From positions 26,827,608-26,891,607 of the forward strand of contig NC_088300.1 of the NCBI RefSeq assembly GCF_032854445.1: a DNA stretch of 64,000 nt, read 5' to 3'. The notes under the pieces were generated by a model that saw only the letters and a list, made by a program, of their open reading frames with translations, did not search any database and was not told the DNA's origin. Within the stretch, counting starts at the first letter, position 1. Every line of letters begins with the position of its first letter. This DNA comes from Liolophura sinensis (taxonomy: Eukaryota; Mollusca; Polyplacophora; Chitonida; Chitonidae). Below are positions 19,867 through 61,047 of this stretch, one piece after another. Both the position numbers and the translations under genes were made by a program.

Positions 19867-33341
<13,475 letters not shown>

Positions 33342-45400: not shown

Positions 45401-47677
45401 AGGACTTACATATGTTTCTGTTTCTTTAAAACATGAATTGTGTTCTCAGAAAAAATTTTGTTTTCAAGACTAAGATTTCTGATTTCAGACATTCCAGTAA
45501 TTCCAGACTTAGAGGACCAGCAGGAAGATGAAATTACCACAAAAGTTGCTGTGGCTCCTACGTATGTAGTCAGCTTATAAAGGCTTTTGTTTTTGTACTG
45601 CACATACATCAGTTAGAAATAACGATCTCTTCTATCTGTGAATGTTAGGAGATAAAAGTGATTTGTTTGTATTCTTTTATCAAATTCATTCTATGGCAAT
45701 ATTATTATCAGGCTTGAGAAATACAGTATATTTAATTTGACAGTTGTCCCAAAATTTTCCAGAAAAAGTGTTTTAAAGGCAGATGAAGGTCTTACAATAT
45801 TACTTACATTGTAAGTGCTGAAACTTACATTTTCCTCCAGTAATTTTCTACTTTCGCAAACCTCTTTCCTCCCATCATAATGGTGGTGATCGACGTCGAA
45901 TAAGTGATATAGTCTTGAGTATGGCGGAAAACCCCAATCAGGTAAATCCATAAATACAAACAACCTTTCTAAGATCTTCACATCTCTCAGAATCATGCAA
46001 AGTGAGTACCTGGGTCAGTTGTGATGATATTTATGGTCATTTACTTTATGATTGCATCAGAGGTATACATCTGTTGTCTTTTAAATTGGAAATAATCAGT
46101 TTAGATTGTAACAGATTATCAGATGTTGGCTTGTTCCTTCTGTCTTCAGTGTAGCAGTGAACCGAGTGGCGACCTACATAGAGCTGGATAATGACTTGCT
46201 GAGACAGGCGGCCTTCCTCACACTGGTCAGTTTGTTGATGATATTCAGTTTTATGTAAATATTTAAACAATTGCAAAATAATAATGCACAGCCTCTGTGT
46301 TCCATTTTTGAAATATTCAATATCCCCATAAAAATATTTAATGATATTTCCATTCTTGTTGGCAGGACAATGATATTGACTTGAAGATACTGACAAGAGG
46401 TTTATCAGGGGAGGCTGATTTGGTGGAGGTATGATGGTTGGGTACAGTTATTTTAATTATGTGATTTCGCTGAAGGGATTACTGTAATTCTTCAACCTTT
46501 TCACATGTTTGCATGATGTTTATTCAAGCATATTCTGAATGCATTTGTCTGTGTGGTCTGGATAAAATTACATTTTTGTGAAGCCCTGATTCCATTTAAA
46601 CATTCCATATTTGGTTTTTAGGTTCATATTGAGGTGAATTAGCTTCCTGTTTGAGGCTTTTGTTGATCGCATTTTTGGTTTCCATGGCAACTGACAAATA
46701 GGCTTGCCCTAGAACATTAAAGGTTTAGTATAGTGCTGATGAAATGAACGAGAGAGCCACTTTATACATCATTAACATGCTTGTTCAATCCACTTCCACT
46801 GACATTTCCACCAAACACCTATTCAAGGGCTTGAATTTAACTGTTGAATAACCTGGAATTTAAGTACTAATGGCGTGGAAAATCATGGAATATCATGGAA
46901 TTTTAGTATTAATGGACTGGAAAATCATGGAATTTTAGTATTAATGGACTGGAAAATCATGGAATATCATGGAATTTTAGTATTAATGGACTGGAAAATC
47001 ATGGAATATCATGGAATTTTAGTATTAATGGACTGGAAAATCATGGAATATCATGGAATTTTAGGACTAATGGACGGGAAAATCATGGAATATCATGGAA
47101 TATTAAAACTCCATCTCTGTATGAACCCTGATCATGTGATACATCTAATTGTTCCCTGTATCTCAAAGACCTACATCTTTGCCAGAGTACTTGTACAAAA
47201 GTTCTAGAAAGAACAACTGTCTTATTTTCAAGGAGATAGACGGTGTGAATGATTGATAGTTCTCTCTCTCCTGGCAGAAGAAAATGCCTAGCAAGGTAAA
47301 AGTGGGTTGTTGTTTACAAATAATTAACTAATTAACATTAATATTGACTATTCAATAAAAATCTGTGTACCGCTAAAAAAACATTTATGAACTTGTGCAT
47401 AAATTAATCAGGAAAAACTGTTAATTAGGCTTGATTAATTTTATGTTGGTATCATATTGATTGATTAATATATATAAGCATTGACTTTTGAAGTTTCCAT
47501 GTGACTAAAATTTGGTTGCTTCTGGTCTGACAGATATAATTTGACGTGCATTTCCTTGTCATCTTGTAGGAGGATAAAGTGTGGGAATGGGATCGACTTT
47601 TCACAGAGGTGACCTCTGACCTGACGATGACATTGGAAAAAGATGATACAGAAGAAAAGGACTCTGTAGATAGATAG
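39468..47677 (+). CDS. IFT43: Intraflagellar transport protein 43 homolog
   Basis: Subunit of intraflagellar transport complex A, which drives retrograde transport and membrane-protein entry in cilia. Eleven GT-AG coding exons with consistent phases: 39468-39506, 41046-41138, 42677-42724, 44351-44430, 44634-44669, 45114-45166, 45489-45561, 46150-46225, 46366-46428, 47278-47295 and 47570-47677 (TAG), giving 228 aa against about 208 in human. The N-terminal half is polar and charged. The family signature is in the C-terminal half: DIPVIPDLED (about 117-126), TYIELDNDLL, DLKILTRGLSGEADLVE, and VWEWDRLFTEVTSDL (about 197-211). The start MDSDDLGFGS lies in a GC-richer stretch after stops and fits a first exon. 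It lies in the same orientation as UGP2, about 6.1 kb downstream of it, and converges on SPATA17. Exons 3 and 10 are in-frame cassettes (48 and 18 nt) that could be skipped. Identity is secure from the C-terminal half; the two N-terminal exons rest on splice phase and composition. Confidence 0.9.
40438..40702 (+). repeat. Full-length diverged SINE in IFT43 intron 1
   Basis: Head TGTGGCCTCCGAGGCTGAGC, B box GAGTTCAAGTTC, and a 3' domain with many substitutions. Older than the copies with perfect duplications. Confidence 0.82.
43118..43262 (+). mobile_element. MITE-like element, family 1, partial
   Basis: Left end TACTGTAATTCTTCAACCTT, then TACTTTTTGTGGAACCCTGG and a diverged right half. In IFT43 intron 3. 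Confidence 0.55.
45858..45960 (+). repeat. SINE 3' domain in an IFT43 intron
   Basis: ACCTCTTTCCTCCCATCATA through a degenerate tail (CAATCAGGTAAATCCATAAA). 5'-truncated. Confidence 0.75.
46481..46600 (+). mobile_element. MITE-like element, family 1, partial
   Basis: Left end TACTGTAATTCTTCAACCTT, then CATGTTTGCATGATG and TTTTGTGAAGCCCTGATTCC. The right end is lost. In IFT43 intron 9. Confidence 0.6.
46869..47105 (+). repeat. 42-bp minisatellite in IFT43 intron 9
   Basis: Six head-to-tail units built on AATGGACTGGAAAATCATGG plus AATATCATGGAATTTTAGTATT. One unit lacks 10 bases; the last two carry changes. Period 42 is a multiple of three, which creates an accidental open frame. Confidence 0.9.
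47278..47295 (+). CDS. IFT43: 18-nt in-frame microexon of IFT43 (KKMPSK)
   Basis: A pyrimidine-rich acceptor ending CTGGCAG precedes six codons, followed by the donor GTAAAA. Both flanking junctions are phase 0, so including or skipping it keeps the frame. It sits between the exon ending DLVE and the exon beginning EDKVWEW. From memory, the human protein joins these blocks through only a few residues, so this exon may be a lineage-specific or alternative insertion of a short basic segment. Confidence 0.6.
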
Positions 47678-51240: not shown

Positions 51241-54200
51241 TTAGACTTGTCCCCGAGAATACGTGTCATTCAACTTCTCAAATATTGGAATGGGAGGAAC
51301 CAATGATTTGAAATTCTGGAACAGAAAAACGATATTGTGATATTAAAATTATATGAAAGATTGGTTCAACTTAGTAATGTTTCCTCTTGAGGAAAATTAG
51401 TATATCCGCACCTGTCTTTGCTATGCTGCAGTACAATGCAAATGAAAGGAGTTATATTCTTAAAATGAAAATATTGTAAATCTTCAACCTTTTCAACCTA
51501 TAAAAGCACTTTTTTCCCGTGGAATTTATGCATACAATTAATATGAAAATATGACCGTGCAAATTTTTTTTCTCCACCCCATAGCCCTCACAGAATGTTT
51601 CAAAATATTGGTTGCTGAGGCAGTTGAAAAAGTTGAAGAATTAGGGTAGGCAGTTTTATTTTCATTTTGTCCTACAATAAAACACAAGAGGTCTTTGGAT
51701 TTCGTTGATACAATACTTGACATATATTTAAGTAATACTGATACCTATCTTTGGCATTGATCACTGATCATCTCTTCAGATCTGTAACAATGTATTCAAC
51801 ACACGACGTACTGTAATGTATATAACCTTGACTGTAGCCACTTTGTTTGTACAATAGCAGTCTGATTTTTTTGGCAGAGCCTCAGAGAAACCATAACTTA
51901 TCATGGGTGTATTTGTCAAAACAAACAAATGTTATAAGAATTGACAATAAGGAACTAATGTATTACTTCACTGTTTTCTATTGACAGTTCTCAAGGCTCC
52001 TGACAAAACTCGCTAAGACACTAAGTTTTTTTAAACCTGCACTTAAAACTATGTGTGTTGATTATTATGCTTACCTGCTTCACAACAAACTTGTCAATAT
52101 GTTCTTCCCTGAAGTACTTTGTTCCATAAGGTATATGTCCATACATGGAGGACGAGTGTAGCAGAGGTTGATACTGATCAGTCCCCTTGCTAAAGGGCAT
52201 AAATCTAAAAGATACAGAATAGAAGCCTTATAACAAAAGCATAATAACAATAACATAATACTGAGTTGACTTTTTCTGACACCTGGTTACTTCAACCTTA
52301 AAGTCGATCTGAATGCTCTGTTGTTTACCATACCATCATGTAGCGGTAAAGGACATCATCTTGTAAAACAAACACTGAGGTTAAAGCCTTGGTTACGAAA
52401 ATCAAAGTTAGTTTTAATATCTATTCAGTTTCTCTATTCAAGTGCCAGACTGATAGTATTTTATTTACTTAAATAGAAATATATGTGAAAGACATGCAGA
52501 AGAAAAATCAACTTGAGATTTGTAATGGAATGAATGGTAATGTCTTAATGCCACTCTGGCAGTATTGCAGCTATATTGTGGTGAAATGGTAAATGGAAAA
52601 ATTAACTCGTATGACAGATGTTGAGTCAAGTAATAAAATTCTACAAAATAAATACTTCAGTGATGTGGCACAGAACAGAGCTGTTGCAGGGAGTATTATC
52701 AGAGGTATCCGGATTTAAACTGTTTGACTGACAGGTGATTTTATCATCACTTACATGTCATCATTCACCCTGTCCACCCACTCCTTATTTTTGAGGGCTT
52801 GTCTGGCCTGCTCCAGGGATGTGAAGGACGTCTCCACCCTGAGGCTTTGCTGGAATGGCTTGTATCTCTGCTTCTGTACATCAGCTGGCTCACGGAATGG
52901 ACCCTTCATAACAATCAAACAACAGCTGTATATTTACCCCAGTGCAAACTATAATACAGTATTTGATACTGCCTCTTGCATATACACAATTTAATTAAAG
53001 CTTTTCTCACAAGTTACTAAATCTACATGTAGATATCTGTTACTTAAAAAGTTGATAATGAAAATATAAAAGGGAAACCTGGATGTCTTTCTTAAGGATC
53101 ATAAGGAAATCCCTATTTATGTGGTAAAATGTGACATGATTCAATGGGTAACTCGTAAAAAATTTATGTTCAACTGCAATTTGGACATTATATGTAGCTC
53201 ATCCTCGACTCTCTCATTATTGACAGACGAATGAAGACACTGTGCTATGCTTTTGCTTACTACACATACTGGCAGTATTCAAACCAACATTTGTGTGTAA
53301 CCCTAATGCAGTGTTTCGTGTCTGCTGATAAGTTTGAATGTCTGTGTGGAAAAAGAACACAGAGGGCACTTTACTTCAATACAGCACTCTGTATTGCTCC
53401 TGGAATACTTGGGAGTTGACGAACAACAACCTCATGTAAAATGTTGGCACTCGAAACTCCATTCATGTAAGCAACCAACATGAGAACAGCGTTTTGAATA
53501 CACCTATTGTTACCTGTGGTTTCTGTGGTAATGGTGGCAGCTGTTGTGGACGTGGCAAATTGTAACCCTTCCAGGACGGGTCATACGAATGCTCTGGGGA
53601 TGACTTCTTCTCCACAGGTAGTGGCTTCACACTCTGTAACAAATACTCCATATCCATGGGGTAACTGAGGAAAAAAATCAAAGAAAAAAGTTGAAGAAGG
53701 AAGAAATAGATCGACATATTTATTAGATATGAATCATATAATGATTTAGAGCATATTTTTACAAAAATGTATCAGACTTCCATGACAGAGAGAGGACAAA
53801 GCTAAATATTGGAATTATATTTAATACAATAAGTAAGCAGGTTAGAGACTTGAACCGGTGAAGTTTGGGTTTTTCAGTCCACACCTCTACCGCTAGACTA
53901 AAGGGAAATATCCACCATGATACACATAATAACAAATAACTTTTTACAACCTTTTACATGAAGTAAGCATCATTTTTATGTTTTCTTCTCCTTTAACACA
54001 TTTCATTTCTATTACAGCAGACCCTGTGAGTTCAAGTCCAGCTTATGCTGGCTTCTTCTCCAGCCGTACGTGGGAAGGTCTGCCAGCAATCTGCGGATGG
54101 TCGTGGGTTTCCCCTGGGCTCTGCCCGATTTTCTCCCACCACAATGATGGCCGCCGTCGTGTAAGTGAAATATTCTTGTGTAAGGTGTAAGACACCAATC

Positions 54201-57200
54201 AAATAGATAAATAAATATTACAGCAGATGGACTTATAACTGGAGCAAAACACTGCCCTCGTCTGGTAGCTGACACTTAAACTTCCTGGCACAACTTAATA
54301 ATGAAGCAGCACGAGCATGTGGATTTATGACTGCATCTAGGACATCTACAGGTTTCAGTTTATTATTTTCTGACTGATTTGTTTTGTGTCTTATGAAGTG
54401 CTTCAATGAAAGATTATTCACTTCTTTGATAGCGATCATGTCATGTGTAAAGGAATATATGTCTTATTGCTGAATAATTATACATGTGTATACTACAGAG
54501 AGCCTTTCCTGCCTAAATTAAGTTGGATCAGAGCTGTACATGTTTAGTCTATTGTTCGTTCTTGCTTTTGTTATGATGTCTGTGGACAAACTACTAGTCG
54601 TCTTTCATGGATGATGTATACAAAATACAAATGGTCTTAAAGCTGGACAGAATTTTCCATAGCACAGAGAAAAGCATCCAAAATTTCTAACAGTACGCCA
54701 TGTCACAACCAGAAACTCACGGTCTGAAGGGGGAGTTGTAGATACCAGGCATGGCTATCGTACTGACGAGATGGTGCGTCTTCCTGGCCAGGTGCTCTCT
54801 CTGCTGTCTCTCCGCTATCTCCTTCTGTCTCCTCTCAATAGCCTGCTGCTGCTCAGCAAACTCCTGTAGGTCAGATCTGAGCAAGACAAAAATAGAGTAG
54901 ACTGAATAATTTGTTATACATCATTTAGCTAGGGTATTAGGATATGATCTAGTAAATCTTGAAAAAATGCTATCAGAACTGCTTTACATATACAAGTTTG
55001 TATGCACTTTGAGAGCTTACTTGAAATGATTACATGATCTCCGGTCATATGTGGGAAGGCCTGCCAGCAACCTGTGAATGATTGTGGGCATCCTCTGGAC
55101 TCACAATACTGGCCACCGTTGTACAAGTGAAATGTATTCTTTCAGTATGGTGTAAACACCAGTCAAATAAATTACAAAATGAAATGATTGAAAATCTTTT
55201 ACGCGACAATTTAATACACTTATGACTCTTGTACATCTGATGCAGATATTCCAAAATACTAAACTTACACACACAGAATGTGAAAAGCCATAACTTAGTA
55301 CGTTATTGATACTGTAAGAAACTGATACTGTAATTTAAAATTCAAAGTAAAATTTATCAACTTTTACGTAACTTTTTTCTTATAAATGCAAACTGTCCAA
55401 CTGGAGATCCCAGTGTACACGTTAATCAACTTGATTTATCAGGAAGTGAAGATCCGTTTTTAAAACAAGCAAGCACTGAATTTTTTAGATGTGATAAAAA
55501 CATATTAAAAAACTAGACTGTGCAGCATGCAAGTGAATGAGTTGGTACGCACCTGACTTGTTGATTTTTGAGCTGAAGTGCTTCCAGGTAACGCTTCCTG
55601 CTATAATAGTTAAATACATACTTTCTGGTATAAAATCCTCTCCAATATTTTTGAACCTGAAAAGATTAAGAGTCACTGTGATTATATAATCAAGGTTACA
55701 TTCAGGAATATTACACTTACCGGTATACGATGGCACAAAGCATTTGCTTTTCGCTGGACAACATCGATCACAAGCAGGATATGCATATTCCTGTATCCTG
55801 CAGCCAAAGTCATATGTGTCTGCTGACAAGGTTATCTCTCTTTGTTTGCTTCTGAAAACAATGGCTATGTCACTGAAGTGATTCACCTATACATATCCGT
55901 CTTTTGCACTGAATTGATGGGTCTTTTGCGGGAGAAATTTCTGTATCCTATCACTGAGTAACCATTTCAGTATTAAATTAAAAAATGATGCATGAATTAG
56001 CAAACAACTGGTTTGAAATAAAGGGTCAGGTAAAACTTCATGTACCTGTAAAAAGTTGCTGCAGTTCTACAGTTCTGTAGCAATCCCACATAATACACAA
56101 ATACAAATTGTACTGACAGCAACACTACCATTCTCTCTTATACACACTTTTTTCTTGGCTGATTTTGTTGACAGCAAGTCAGTGAAACTAAATTCCAGGT
56201 ATAATGACAATTTTATGCCTGAAGATAACATAGATCTGTTACAAGCAAATTGTAATAGACGATATTACATGAACATTGACTACTAACTATGTCAGACATA
56301 CCTTTGTGGCCATGGCATTGTAATGGTTCAACTTCATCTGGAAAACTCTGTCCTGTATAAAAGGAACATATTTATGTTTTAGTAAGCAGATTTCTCCAGA
56401 TAACATATTTAATCTATAACGAAGGGGTAAAATATGAACATATGCAACTGCCCAGAACATGTTTAAGCAATCAGGCAAAAATTAAGCTCAAAAAACAAAA
56501 ATGTTCTCACCTTTACCAAGCCTCTAAAGTATCTTCTGCCCAGAAACCCTCTCCATGTTCTTTGTATTGTTGTGGCTAACCTGAACAAATGTCTACAGAC
56601 AGAAAACAGTCACACTCAGCATGAACATTATATACTTGTATATATGTTATTATATGTATGTATGTTAACAAATTCAAAGGTTTAATTGCTTTAATCTCAG
56701 TTTTGGTTGTATTTTTATGTTATAGCAATAAATTTATTTATTTGATTGTTATATATGCCGTACTTATACAATGACAGCCAGCATTATGGTGATAGGAAAC
56801 TTGGCAAAGCCCGGGGGAAACCCACAACCTATAACAATAAACATGTATGTAACTGAGTCAGTTTAAATATTGATTAAGGAGTAACACCTTCTGTCATGGA
56901 TCTCACAACACTCTTCTGTAAGTGTACCCCATAGTCTATGACATAAAACTTGCAAATCAATGACTTACATATACACCGAGTTTTATTCTTACTTCAGATA
57001 AGCCCTTGTAACAGTAGCTCTATACCAAGCCTGTATTCTCACAATGGATTTATATTCCAGCTCCCGATTTTCTTCTGCTTCACTGTAAATAAGTAAGAGA
57101 AATGAAGGAAAATACAATGAACGCCTACATTTAGTGATTTACAGTTAATAGTGTCTGATATTTGTACATTCAGATCCAGTACAACAAAGCTTTCAAAATA

Positions 57201-58002
57201 TTTAAGCCTACAAATAAAAACTCTCCCTTTAGACACAGTTTTACAGCCAGCTATAACTTTATAGCTGTGAATGTTCAAACTTGAAATGAATGAGTAAATT
57301 AATAATTTACAGCTTTATATCACATCAGCAATATCAGAGTCATATATTGTGGTGGGTTACAGAAAGTTTTAGTTTTGAATGAACTCAAAAAGAGACATAA
57401 TATGTGGGCTTGGCTTTTAAAACCGTCCAGGCAAATGGGAAGATCAAGACAACAAAAGACCTGGCATTCAAAGGACGAAAACCAATAGTGATCAGGTACC
57501 AAATCTTAAACAACTCCTTATAGCTCATGACCCTTCAGTGTATAAGTTATTCTAGAATAGCGGTATAAGTATACCTAGTGGGCTACTTGTTTTAGTGATA
57601 CACGGCAATTATAATAAAATATCACCATCTCCTGTATCAGTGCTTGTATTATTATTATTATCTTTTCAAGCCTACAGTTGAAAATTCAAGCCTACAGTGG
57701 TGTGATAACAGGCATCTGAGCACAAAGAAATATTTAAATAATATATATCAACATCATCTGTGACGATATTGTTAACATGGCGAGAGTATTACTACGTGTT
57801 GTTGTTGTTGTTATGAAGTGTATGTGTCTCGTAGGTATGGCTTTATAACAATTACTTTCACCACTGCTTGTGCAATATAACAATTGCTAAACATGGCACT
57901 TTTGTTCATCGTTTTCAATTTAAGTTCCCCTTACTTTTTCCGTCGATACGTGTCCTCAATAATACCATCCACCTGTGATAGCAGTCTCACCATGGTGGCC
58001 AT
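51241..58002 (-). CDS. SPATA17: Spermatogenesis-associated protein 17 homolog (IQ-motif protein)
   Basis: Protein with calmodulin-binding IQ motifs, linked in animals to sperm and motile-cilium function. Ten - strand exons with exact phases: 57935-58002 (ATG at 58002), 56993-57082, 56511-56592, 56302-56352, 55553-55656, 54721-54876, 53514-53664, 52755-52903, 52075-52204 and 51241-51315 (TAA), giving 351 aa against about 361 in human. The start MATMVRLLSQ resembles the mammalian MATLARL. IQ motifs are at about residues 36-52 (VRIQAWYRATVTRAY), 60-76 (TTIQRTWRGFLGRRY) and 97-110 (VQKYWRGFYTRKYV, where Val replaces the usual Ile). A Gln/Glu-rich likely coiled coil spans about 125-165. The family segments MPGIYNSPFR, then GPFREP, then NDDIFMPFSKG follow. 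Head-to-head with the gene at 58336 and convergent with IFT43. All junctions are GT-AG and no disruption was seen. Confidence 0.93.
51474..51648. mobile_element. MITE-like element with both inverted ends, variant core
   Basis: TGTAAATCTTCAACCTTTTC at the left and AAAAGTTGAAGAATTAGGGT at the right form the inverted ends. The inside differs from the 21065 copy. Located in the last SPATA17 intron. Confidence 0.55.
54022..54215 (+). repeat. 5'-truncated SINE in a SPATA17 intron, 12-bp target-site duplication
   Basis: Begins just before the B box (CCCTGTGAGTTCAAGTCCAG). TATTACAGCAGA is duplicated exactly at 54010-54021 and 54216-54227. Antisense to SPATA17. Confidence 0.9.
55032..55179 (+). repeat. 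5'-truncated SINE with internal deletion in a SPATA17 intron
   Basis: TGAAATGATT is duplicated at 55022-55031 and 55180-55189. Part of the pyrimidine-rich central block is missing. Confidence 0.8.
56733..56829 (-). repeat. 5'-truncated SINE in a SPATA17 intron
   Basis: Reverse-oriented 3' domain. It is flanked by TATAGCAATAAA (56721-56732) and TATAACAATAAA (56830-56841), one mismatch. In the sense orientation for SPATA17. Confidence 0.75.
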
Positions 58003-58335
58003 TTCTCACGTCTTGGACTGTCAAATCGACGCCTTGTGGTGGAGATTTACGCTTGGATCTTTCCTTTTTTCAGGATTTGACCTATGGTTGTATATAAAAT
58101 ATTTCTATAAAAAATCCCATACACCCGCTGAAATGATTTCTAAATTCTTTACCACCCTTTTCAGCTTTCCCAGGTTTGAACAGGTTGCCGACAATGCTGT
58201 AGCCCTGTGGTTGCCATAGCAATCACAAACAATATGGCGGACAGGCCGCAGCTGTCATTGACCGGGAGTTAGTGTTTGGAAGTTTTAACAGTTGTACTTG
58301 ATATTAATTAACTGTCGCGGTTGTGCAGAATTACA
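58003..58335. promoter_or_regulatory. Bidirectional promoter between SPATA17 and the 320-aa gene
   Basis: Only 333 bp separate the divergent start codons (58002 - strand, 58336 + strand). The interval holds an X-box-like palindrome GTTGCC-AT-AGCAAT at 58210-58223, a forkhead core ACAAACA at 58225-58231, and an ATGGCGG element at 58234-58240 that resembles a YY1 initiator. The X-box matches the RFX consensus half-sites at 11 of 12 positions. No TATA box is evident. Known biology: RFX and FOXJ1 factors drive ciliary genes through such paired sites. Confidence 0.7.
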
Positions 58336-61047
58336 ATGGCGGTGCAGATTCTTCCAATAACAAGAAAGAAGAGAGTCATCGACAAGTACAAGTGAGTTGC
58401 CATGAATAAAAGGCCTTCATCTTACTGAATACTGCTACTCTGCCAGATGTAGGTTAATTAAGGTTGGCCTATAGCATAACAGGCTACACGCAATAATGTT
58501 AGACCGGCATTAAAAAAAAAAATGTATTAATTGTATTAGTGTTAACACCAGGCAAAGTGGGTGCCTAAAAGAAAAAAAAAATAGTTCTAAACAAAAAGTA
58601 CATTGTACTACCGTGCCGTTTCCGGTAATTAAGATACCCGGTACTAGCTCAGATAACAGTTCTGCATTGTATGTTTTTGTGAAACCATGGCATGGGGCCG
58701 TCTGCTTTATAGTACAAGTTATGTTTTTAAGCATTTGTTTACTATCGATATTATAAAGCATACGATATCATAACAGAAGAGCATCTATAGGCCCCTACAT
58801 GTTGTAAATTATTTCATTTAGTGGCAATATAGGCCTACATGTACGCCAACACAATTAAATTAGGCAAACATTAGATTAACTGTTTCTAATGACATGACCA
58901 GTGTTTATATAGACATTTTTTTTTTAATTATTAGTCTTTATAACGCCATACTAGTACAGCAAGGCTTAGTCATAACATTTCTGCTTCAACAGGTAAGCCG
59001 GATATAGATTTGTCAGACAGGGGCCAGTGCATGTGCTTTAACCATTCTCAGCCAATCAATGCCCCACTGAATCAGTATAGACCTTTCTTTTACACCATGG
59101 TCTAAAGTATCATCAAACCCGCAAAGACTACATGTAGAAATGTTATTTTGTCAAGTTTAACAGTTATTAGCTGTGAAAACTATACTGATACAATACTCTG
59201 AAAGATATACTGGGATCATTTATTTGTCATTGCCATTTTATATATTTGACCCTGCCCTAATTTTCCTGTCCTCTGGGCTCTGCCTGGGTTCCTCCCACCA
59301 TAATGCTGGATGCTGTCATATAAGTGATATACATGTATGTTCTGTACTACTTAAACAGCAATCAAGTAAATAAATAAATAATTTTCACTGTTTCAGCCCC
59401 GACACCTTTCGTGTGATCAGCACAGAGGCAGAAGGTTTGCACAGACCACTCCCAGCAAGCTCCGCGACTCAGCTTCCTTTGTACGATGAACTTCAAGTAC
59501 AGAAACCAACACCGTACGTATATGACAGAGAAACACAGGTTCTACCTAAAGGCCTGCCAGACTACAGGGCTAACCGTCCCCACCCTGAAGCCACAGATTT
59601 CCTCCGTCATAACGTCCTCTTCCTGAATGAACCTGTGTGTAGCGTACACACAGGGGAGACACAGGCGGATCAGGGAAGCTGGTGGCCATCACGGACCTCT
59701 GACAAACCTCTGGAGGCTCCGTCTTATACGGTCAACACCACATTCAGGCAGGATTTCAGAAAGCGAAAAGGTGTCACGCCAGCAGCTACCAGACACTCCT
59801 CAAACCCCAACAAAGAGCCCTCCAAAGGAGCAGGTACAATGTTCACATTAACATAGCTCTCTATTCTATTGATGTATTTTTAATCATACAACAAAATGGT
59901 GTGGTTTTGTGTTTATTTTCTTTCAAAATCACTTTGAGTGTGATATTCACACTAGTATGGTGTTCAGGAGAAACATTAGAGTGAAATGAAGACATTTATA
60001 TCATTTGCTGTAATCTTGTTTTGTATGTGAAGGAATGAAGAAACCACCTAGAAGTTAGTGGTTTGATATTGAATTTTCCAGTGCCAGTGAATTTTCTCAG
60101 AGGAGCTGATGGAAAACAGACACTGTGGAAAGAAGGGTTGTCCTATGAACATCAGTATAACAGTCGCCTTGATCCATCTTATCCAATTAGAGGAAAGGTA
60201 ACAAATTATAAGTGTAACTTTTCTATTGTAGTCAGTTTGATTATTTCTTTAAAACTGGTAGTGGGTAAACAGCCTGACAGAAATGCATAGTTGAATAAAC
60301 ATATTCAGTAAGTCTCACTGTTTATTTCCCCCTTTTTTTGTTGGCAAGGCCTACATGAAACATGTTCACCAAAGACGGATGCATTAAACATTATCTTTTG
60401 AAATCAGTTGAGAAGGTTCACATGTAACCAGAGAGCTTTAAGTCAGCTAAAAATGATTTTATTGGATTTTTTTCGGCAGTGATGAGAGGCTGAAAAGAAC
60501 TTGTAGAACTTAGTAGTTTGTATACTGACTGTTGTTGTGTTAAGTTTCTTGAATGGCACAAATCATAAAGCAGATTATATGTGGATAGGGCATCATTGTT
60601 GATACATTCATGTATATGTATACTTGTAAACAAGCTTCTTGTGTAAATAATGTTTAAAGAAACCTAAAAATCAGAAACATATTTTCTTCACAGAGACATG
60701 GAGCATTTGTGTGGGACAAAATGAACCCGGAGGACAGTCAGCGATTTATCGACCATTACAGTAGTCTAGCGAAACAAGAGAGGGACGTAGCGAACAATCA
60801 GTGTGCTCAAGCCACATGCAGTACAGAAAACTGCAGCGTAACCTGGCCACCAAGTAATGGATCAAGGGAGACAACTCAAGGGCAGACACATACATACATC
60901 CAGAATGGAACTGCAGAATCCAGTTCAAAATGTCAAAACAACAATAATGTATTTCAGGAAGCCAAAAATATGCCATCCAGGCGTCAGTCTGTAACCTTGG
61001 CAACTAGCTGTGGAATGACAGCTGACCTGCCCCCAGTAGATCAATAG
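58336..61047 (+). CDS. Uncharacterised 320-aa protein, probable ciliary or sperm protein
   Basis: Four GT-AG exons with consistent phase: 58336-58391, 59397-59833, 60082-60197 and 60694-61047 (TAG). The start MAVQILPITRKKRVIDKY lies just downstream of the bidirectional promoter. No signal peptide, membrane segment or enzyme motif is visible. The middle part is rich in Pro, Arg and Tyr, with short blocks such as VLPKGLPDYRANRPHPEATD, LNEPVCSVHTGET and QGSWWPS, then GADGKQTLWKEGLSYEHQYN and RGKRHGAFVWDKM. The last 70 residues are polar and low in complexity. Repeated Pro/Tyr/Trp-containing linear blocks without a fold signature resemble microtubule inner proteins of axonemes. I considered the C2orf73 (CIMIP6) family from memory but cannot confirm it. 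Its promoter, shared with SPATA17 and carrying RFX/forkhead sites, supports a ciliary role. Confidence 0.85.
59268..59382 (+). repeat. SINE 3' domain ending next to a splice acceptor
   Basis: TCCTCTGGGCTCTGCCTGGG through an AAATA tail. The tail ends only about 14 bases before the acceptor of exon 2 (59397) of the 320-aa gene. Confidence 0.8.

Follow-up and report, generated by a model that had tools for sequence, protein, structure and literature searches.

In the 64-kb stretch of DNA analyzed here (the window), two genes run in opposite directions from start codons exactly 333 bp apart, and we consider it probable that the interval between these codons is an RFX-responsive bidirectional promoter of the motile-cilium genes SPATA17 and CIMIP6. 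We favor this explanation because both genes encode predicted ciliary proteins and because an X-box-like site, as found between them, is only rarely expected (0.0007-0.006 per 333 bp). The motif, the geometry, both gene identities and the low chance frequency of the motif were shown by the analysis. Mechanistically, an RFX factor would bind the imperfect X-box at 58210-58223, and the occupied site would raise transcription both ways, toward SPATA17 and toward CIMIP6. Such RFX-driven activity would be expected in ciliated cells and sperm precursors, and the adjoining ACAAACA may contribute FOXJ1-type input.

Two predicted ciliary genes arranged head to head

The putative bidirectional promoter (58003-58335) lies between the minus-strand ATG of SPATA17 (58002) and the plus-strand ATG of CIMIP6 (58336). 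With 333 bp between their start codons the two form a head-to-head protein-coding pair less than 1 kb apart, the layout expected of a bidirectional promoter. The initial annotation had described a divergent promoter of 333 bp, and this is the exact distance when read from ATG to ATG. A promoter that is itself a repeat copy was ruled out, as the interval matches the genome once.

On the minus strand, the 5' portion of SPATA17 spans 52757-58002, as judged from exon frames and matches to solved structure chains. Its first coding exon lies at 57935-58002, and exon frames place further exons near 57000, 56500, 55600, 54800, 53600 and 52800. When the joined exons were compared with the PDB, they matched Spermatogenesis-associated protein 17 (9ijj, 3e-35) and FAP305 (7n6g, 1.2e-27), which bears out the name SPATA17 given to this gene earlier. 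In the central apparatus, SPATA17 is the rachis protein of the C1a projection (PMC12297659), and it belongs to the C1a-c-e supercomplex (PMC7999657). A literature search for SPATA17 together with RFX or FOXJ1 returned nothing bearing on SPATA17 regulation.

The plus-strand gene (58336-61047) encodes 320 amino acids in four exons of our splice model (58336-58391, 59397-59833, 60082-60197 and 60694-61047). It matched the Pfam family PF15667 (CMIP6, ciliary microtubule inner protein 6) with 4e-39 and 134.9 bits, well above the curated cut-off of 27, and the genome contains a single match to this family. A PDB search with the CIMIP6 sequence found no relative. By homology the gene is thus CIMIP6, a predicted ciliary protein. 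The initial annotation had left it unnamed and had predicted its co-regulation in the cilium programme from SPATA17 being a ciliary/sperm gene; its membership is now supported by the identity of the gene, independently of the motif, and CIMIP6 can be put head to head with SPATA17. We take C2orf73 to be the human gene of the PF15667/CIMIP6 family. Published work names C2orf73 as one of the Mn-repeat microtubule inner protein paralogues (PMC10973386).

The pair offers a direct test case for one RFX site coordinating doublet-lumen and central-apparatus proteins. One RFX site, whether or not it is aided by forkhead input, might coordinate CIMIP6, a microtubule inner protein, and SPATA17, the C1a rachis, from one 333-bp bidirectional promoter. 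This is a tentative proposal, and we hold it with less confidence than the promoter assignment as such. In human, the SPATA17 and CIMIP6 genes are located on different chromosomes. Their pairing could be old and later have been separated in vertebrates, or it could be peculiar to this lineage. If the pairing were common to other invertebrates, it would represent an RFX-driven bidirectional promoter that vertebrates have lost.

The X-box-like site in the interval

The candidate RFX dimer site is the imperfect palindrome GTTGCC-AT-AGCAAT (GTTGCCATAGCAAT), and sequence and position (58210-58223) agree with the initial annotation. The latter had reported a match to the RFX X-box at all but the last base. 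This part stood: the strict consensus GTNRCC-N0-3-RGYAAC is missed by one base on either strand, with T as the last base, and for this reason we term the site X-box-like. One correction concerns the minus strand: read there, as ATTGCT-AT-GGCAAC, the site fully agrees with the loose Drosophila consensuses RYYNYY-N-RRNRAC and RYYVYY-N1-3-RRHRAC. The restricted Drosophila consensus GYTRYY-N1-3-RRHRAC fails on both strands. Twenty-six bp upstream of the site, on the plus strand, a second GTTGCC half-site (58184-58189) lies without a right half; about 0.6 such half-sites are expected per 333 bp, and its occurrence is hence near chance level.

Without mismatches, GYTRCCNNRGYAAY matches the 64-kb window once, at 58210-58223; dinucleotide shuffles give an expectation of 0.16 matches in the window. 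For scoring we used an RFX weight matrix that is approximate, unpublished and written by ourselves from general knowledge of RFX motifs, and all values derived from it are rough. Under a first-order Markov model, this approximate matrix gives 0.0007 expected sites per 333 bp that score at least as high as the site at 58210-58223. Empirically, five such sites were found in about 262 kb of other loci of the same genome, leaving out two hits from inside this window, which corresponds to about 0.006 per 333 bp. X-box-like sites are thus commoner in the interval than expected (0.0007-0.006, with an approximate matrix), and because of this low expectation the site is probably meaningful. In the window, the matrix scored 18.4 at 46678-46691, 16.8 at 60991-61004 and 16.0 at 58210-58223. 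The second of these sites (GTAACCTTGGCAAC) is located within the last coding exon of CIMIP6.

These other sites bear on the explanation that the motif is a coincidence in a divergent promoter that works without RFX input. X-box-like sites do occur at non-promoter spots in the window, one with a forkhead core (46678-46691) and one in coding sequence (60991-61004), and the consensus at 58210-58223 is imperfect. However, the low expectation per 333 bp and the placement of the site exactly between two ciliary genes speak against coincidence, and we regard it as unlikely.

Alternatively, the X-box might serve one gene only, more likely CIMIP6 with its nearer start codon, while the other gene uses separate elements. 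The 3' edge of the site is 112 bp away from the CIMIP6 ATG, whereas its 5' edge is 207 bp away from the SPATA17 ATG, and a neighboring YY1-like element likewise points to CIMIP6. Against this it must be held that both genes are ciliary, and that RFX sites are near-palindromic and hence have no strong direction. We judge service to one gene improbable, about as much as a coincidental motif, and retain the bidirectional RFX promoter as the preferred explanation.

The element in question, CAATATGGCGG (58230-58240, plus strand), shares two bases with the end of the forkhead core. In an unscored comparison, it resembles the YY1 element found in one class of animal core promoters. The window contains three plus-strand copies of ATGGCGG and no copy on the minus strand. 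In amphioxus, YY1 was scored along with other promoter features (PMC6292497). The YY1-like element may mark the start region of the plus gene CIMIP6; by analogy, its position would put the putative CIMIP6 start near the X-box, as in HEATR2.

The neighboring forkhead core

The forkhead core ACAAACA (RYAAAYA) at 58225-58231 on the plus strand is separated from the X-box-like site by a single base, C at 58224, as the initial annotation had it. Whether this adjacency means anything depends on the background. RYAAAYA is frequent in the window (217 occurrences vs 176 expected from shuffling), and one is expected anywhere in 333 bp with p ~0.67. The probability falls to ~0.06 for a core at most 8 bp away, whatever its side and strand, and to ~0.016 for a same-strand core 0-8 bp downstream. 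Genome-wide, GTTRCCATRGYAAY X-boxes were accompanied by RYAAAYA 23 times at 0-8 bp and 60 times at 40-70 bp. With the latter as control, 18.7 near pairs are expected, i.e., 2.6 forkhead cores per offset near the X-box vs 1.9 in the control, and adjacency is not significantly enriched genome-wide (p = 0.16). The X-boxes in this count are probably for the most part not promoter sites, and a forkhead preference specific to promoters would still be compatible with it.

A composite module, in which RFX and FOXJ1 bind the X-box and ACAAACA jointly and the one-base spacing matters, would attach more weight to the pair. In Fd3F/Rfx targets of Drosophila, mutation has shown closely spaced Fox and X-box motifs to be functional (PMC3414849), and work in elegans can also be cited in favor (PMC10393296). 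By our own count of the listed matches, a spacing of 1 occurs in 8 of the 23 near pairs. We rejected this excess as a spacing grammar, however, since several of these sites have flanks in common and, by eye, seem to stem from a single interspersed repeat present in several copies. Moreover, near pairs are not significantly more frequent than expected (see above), and in Xenopus, Foxj1-bound promoters are depleted in forkhead motifs relative to distal sites (PMC5245798). A composite module thus appears rather doubtful, if slightly less so than coincidence or service to one gene.

The initial annotation had treated forkhead core and X-box as a meaningful pair, and this claim was not supported: apart from the lack of significant genome-wide enrichment, the window has a second, better-scoring pair at 46678-46700, away from the promoter, and Foxj1-bound cilium promoters in Xenopus seldom have strong forkhead motifs (PMC5245798). 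Because RYAAAYA is frequent in the window and not significantly enriched near X-boxes genome-wide, we count the forkhead core as weak evidence; on the present evidence it is indistinguishable from chance. ACAAACA may be functional, possibly with FOXJ1-type input, but we would not expect so. More generally, a forkhead core next to an X-box is poor evidence unless the local background is considered. In the second pair (GTTTCCATGGCAACTGACAAATA), an X-box-like site with a score of 18.4, vs 16.0 for the promoter site, precedes a forkhead core; the pair is located outside the SPATA17-CIMIP6 promoter, 3' of those SPATA17 exons that we could place.

Known cilium promoters and X-boxes elsewhere in the genome

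RFX motifs are a recurrent feature of cilium promoters. In Xenopus, multiciliated-cell genes show an enrichment of these motifs no more than 100 bp from their starts, and the same holds for the promoters of orthologues from human, mouse, zebrafish, fly and a cnidarian (PMC5245798). They are also enriched in cilium promoters of choanoflagellates (PMC10530576). Nearly all Drosophila Fd3F targets have a Fox core and an X-box close by, usually less than 50 bp from the start, and these X-boxes are often imperfect (PMC3414849). The interval between SPATA17 and CIMIP6 resembles Fd3F/Rfx promoters such as nan, iav and Dhc93AB in that an imperfect X-box and an adjacent forkhead core are found near the start of a cilium gene. 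In contrast, the motifs of the Drosophila targets were mutated, tested and found conserved (PMC3414849), whereas the interval described here is known from its sequence; moreover, a single site would here serve two divergent genes.

The X-box of vertebrate HEATR2 promoters is mostly located at position -16 relative to the start, and a further X-box, in some cases a more degenerate one, is close by (PMC4168999). Our interval is similar with its X-box near the presumed start, a weaker second RFX element close by and a loose forkhead core in the region. The HEATR2 X-box, however, is conserved in vertebrates and bound by RFX3 in ChIP (PMC4168999), while the SPATA17-CIMIP6 site is less perfect and comes from sequence analysis. 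An RFX half-site close to the start of a cilium gene is also found in choanoflagellates, although their motif is monomeric and backed by mutant and reporter assays (PMC10530576). Amphioxus bidirectional promoters share the short interval between head-to-head protein-coding genes; they were mapped by CAGE (PMC6292497), whereas our interval is defined by start codons. In Drosophila, an upstream X-box failed as a predictor of RFX dependence when used by itself, and conservation had to be taken into account as well (PMC2375033). Given this failure, the imperfect consensus and the published Fox/X-box pairs, the site is best called X-box-like and the arrangement belongs to a known kind. SPATA17-CIMIP6 is a plausible further example of this kind of cilium switch.

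The same caution applies within this genome. GTTGCCATRGYAAY gave 773 strand hits, in which perfect palindromes count twice, vs 13 for the reversed pattern, and part of this excess sits in an apparent interspersed repeat and in coding exons. Pfam searches with 40 predicted coding segments beside sampled X-box loci returned, among others, TGF-beta, PNISR, sulfatase, bromodomain, RGS and PDZ. The few genes that could be identified there were mostly non-ciliary, and no ciliary signal emerged from these neighbors, with many of the loci being repeats and 3 kb being too short for most first exons. For nine tektin matches, the 2.5 kb preceding the matched exon contained no X-box scoring at least 12; the true first exons may lie farther upstream. 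CLUAP1 and BBS5 had no recognizable first coding exon in the 1.5 kb examined and seem to start in earlier exons. We count against the RFX promoter that the strict consensus is missed by one base, that X-box sequences are so numerous and partly lie in repeats or coding exons, that the sampled neighbors are mostly non-ciliary, and that the nine tektin upstream regions lack an X-box of that score. The X-box sequence alone is hence a poor predictor in this genome, and the site at 58210-58223 gains its weight from its location between two ciliary genes.

A perfect X-box palindrome (GTTGCCATGGTAACCAGATT...) seems to be part of the interspersed repeat (sampled loci L017, L021, L022, L032, L037, L038 and L047, near 1501). 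The repeat could scatter RFX-like sites and may account for part of the genome-wide excess. Individual loci showed further features. Roughly 300 bp upstream of where the matched exons of a minus-strand chaperonin (Cpn60/TCP1) gene begin, there is a strict X-box (G000:C1:72043633-72043646). Another locus combines an X-box with a forkhead core (L055:2390-2737); an RGS-domain gene, by eye possibly RGS22, has an exon about 1 kb away. At G000:C1:47689403-47867546, GTTGCCATGGTAAT sites follow each other every ~30-40 kb in one orientation, as if in an array of a long repeated unit. Within the window, the plus strand at ~19915-31000 contains exons that by eye resemble UDP-glucose pyrophosphorylase.
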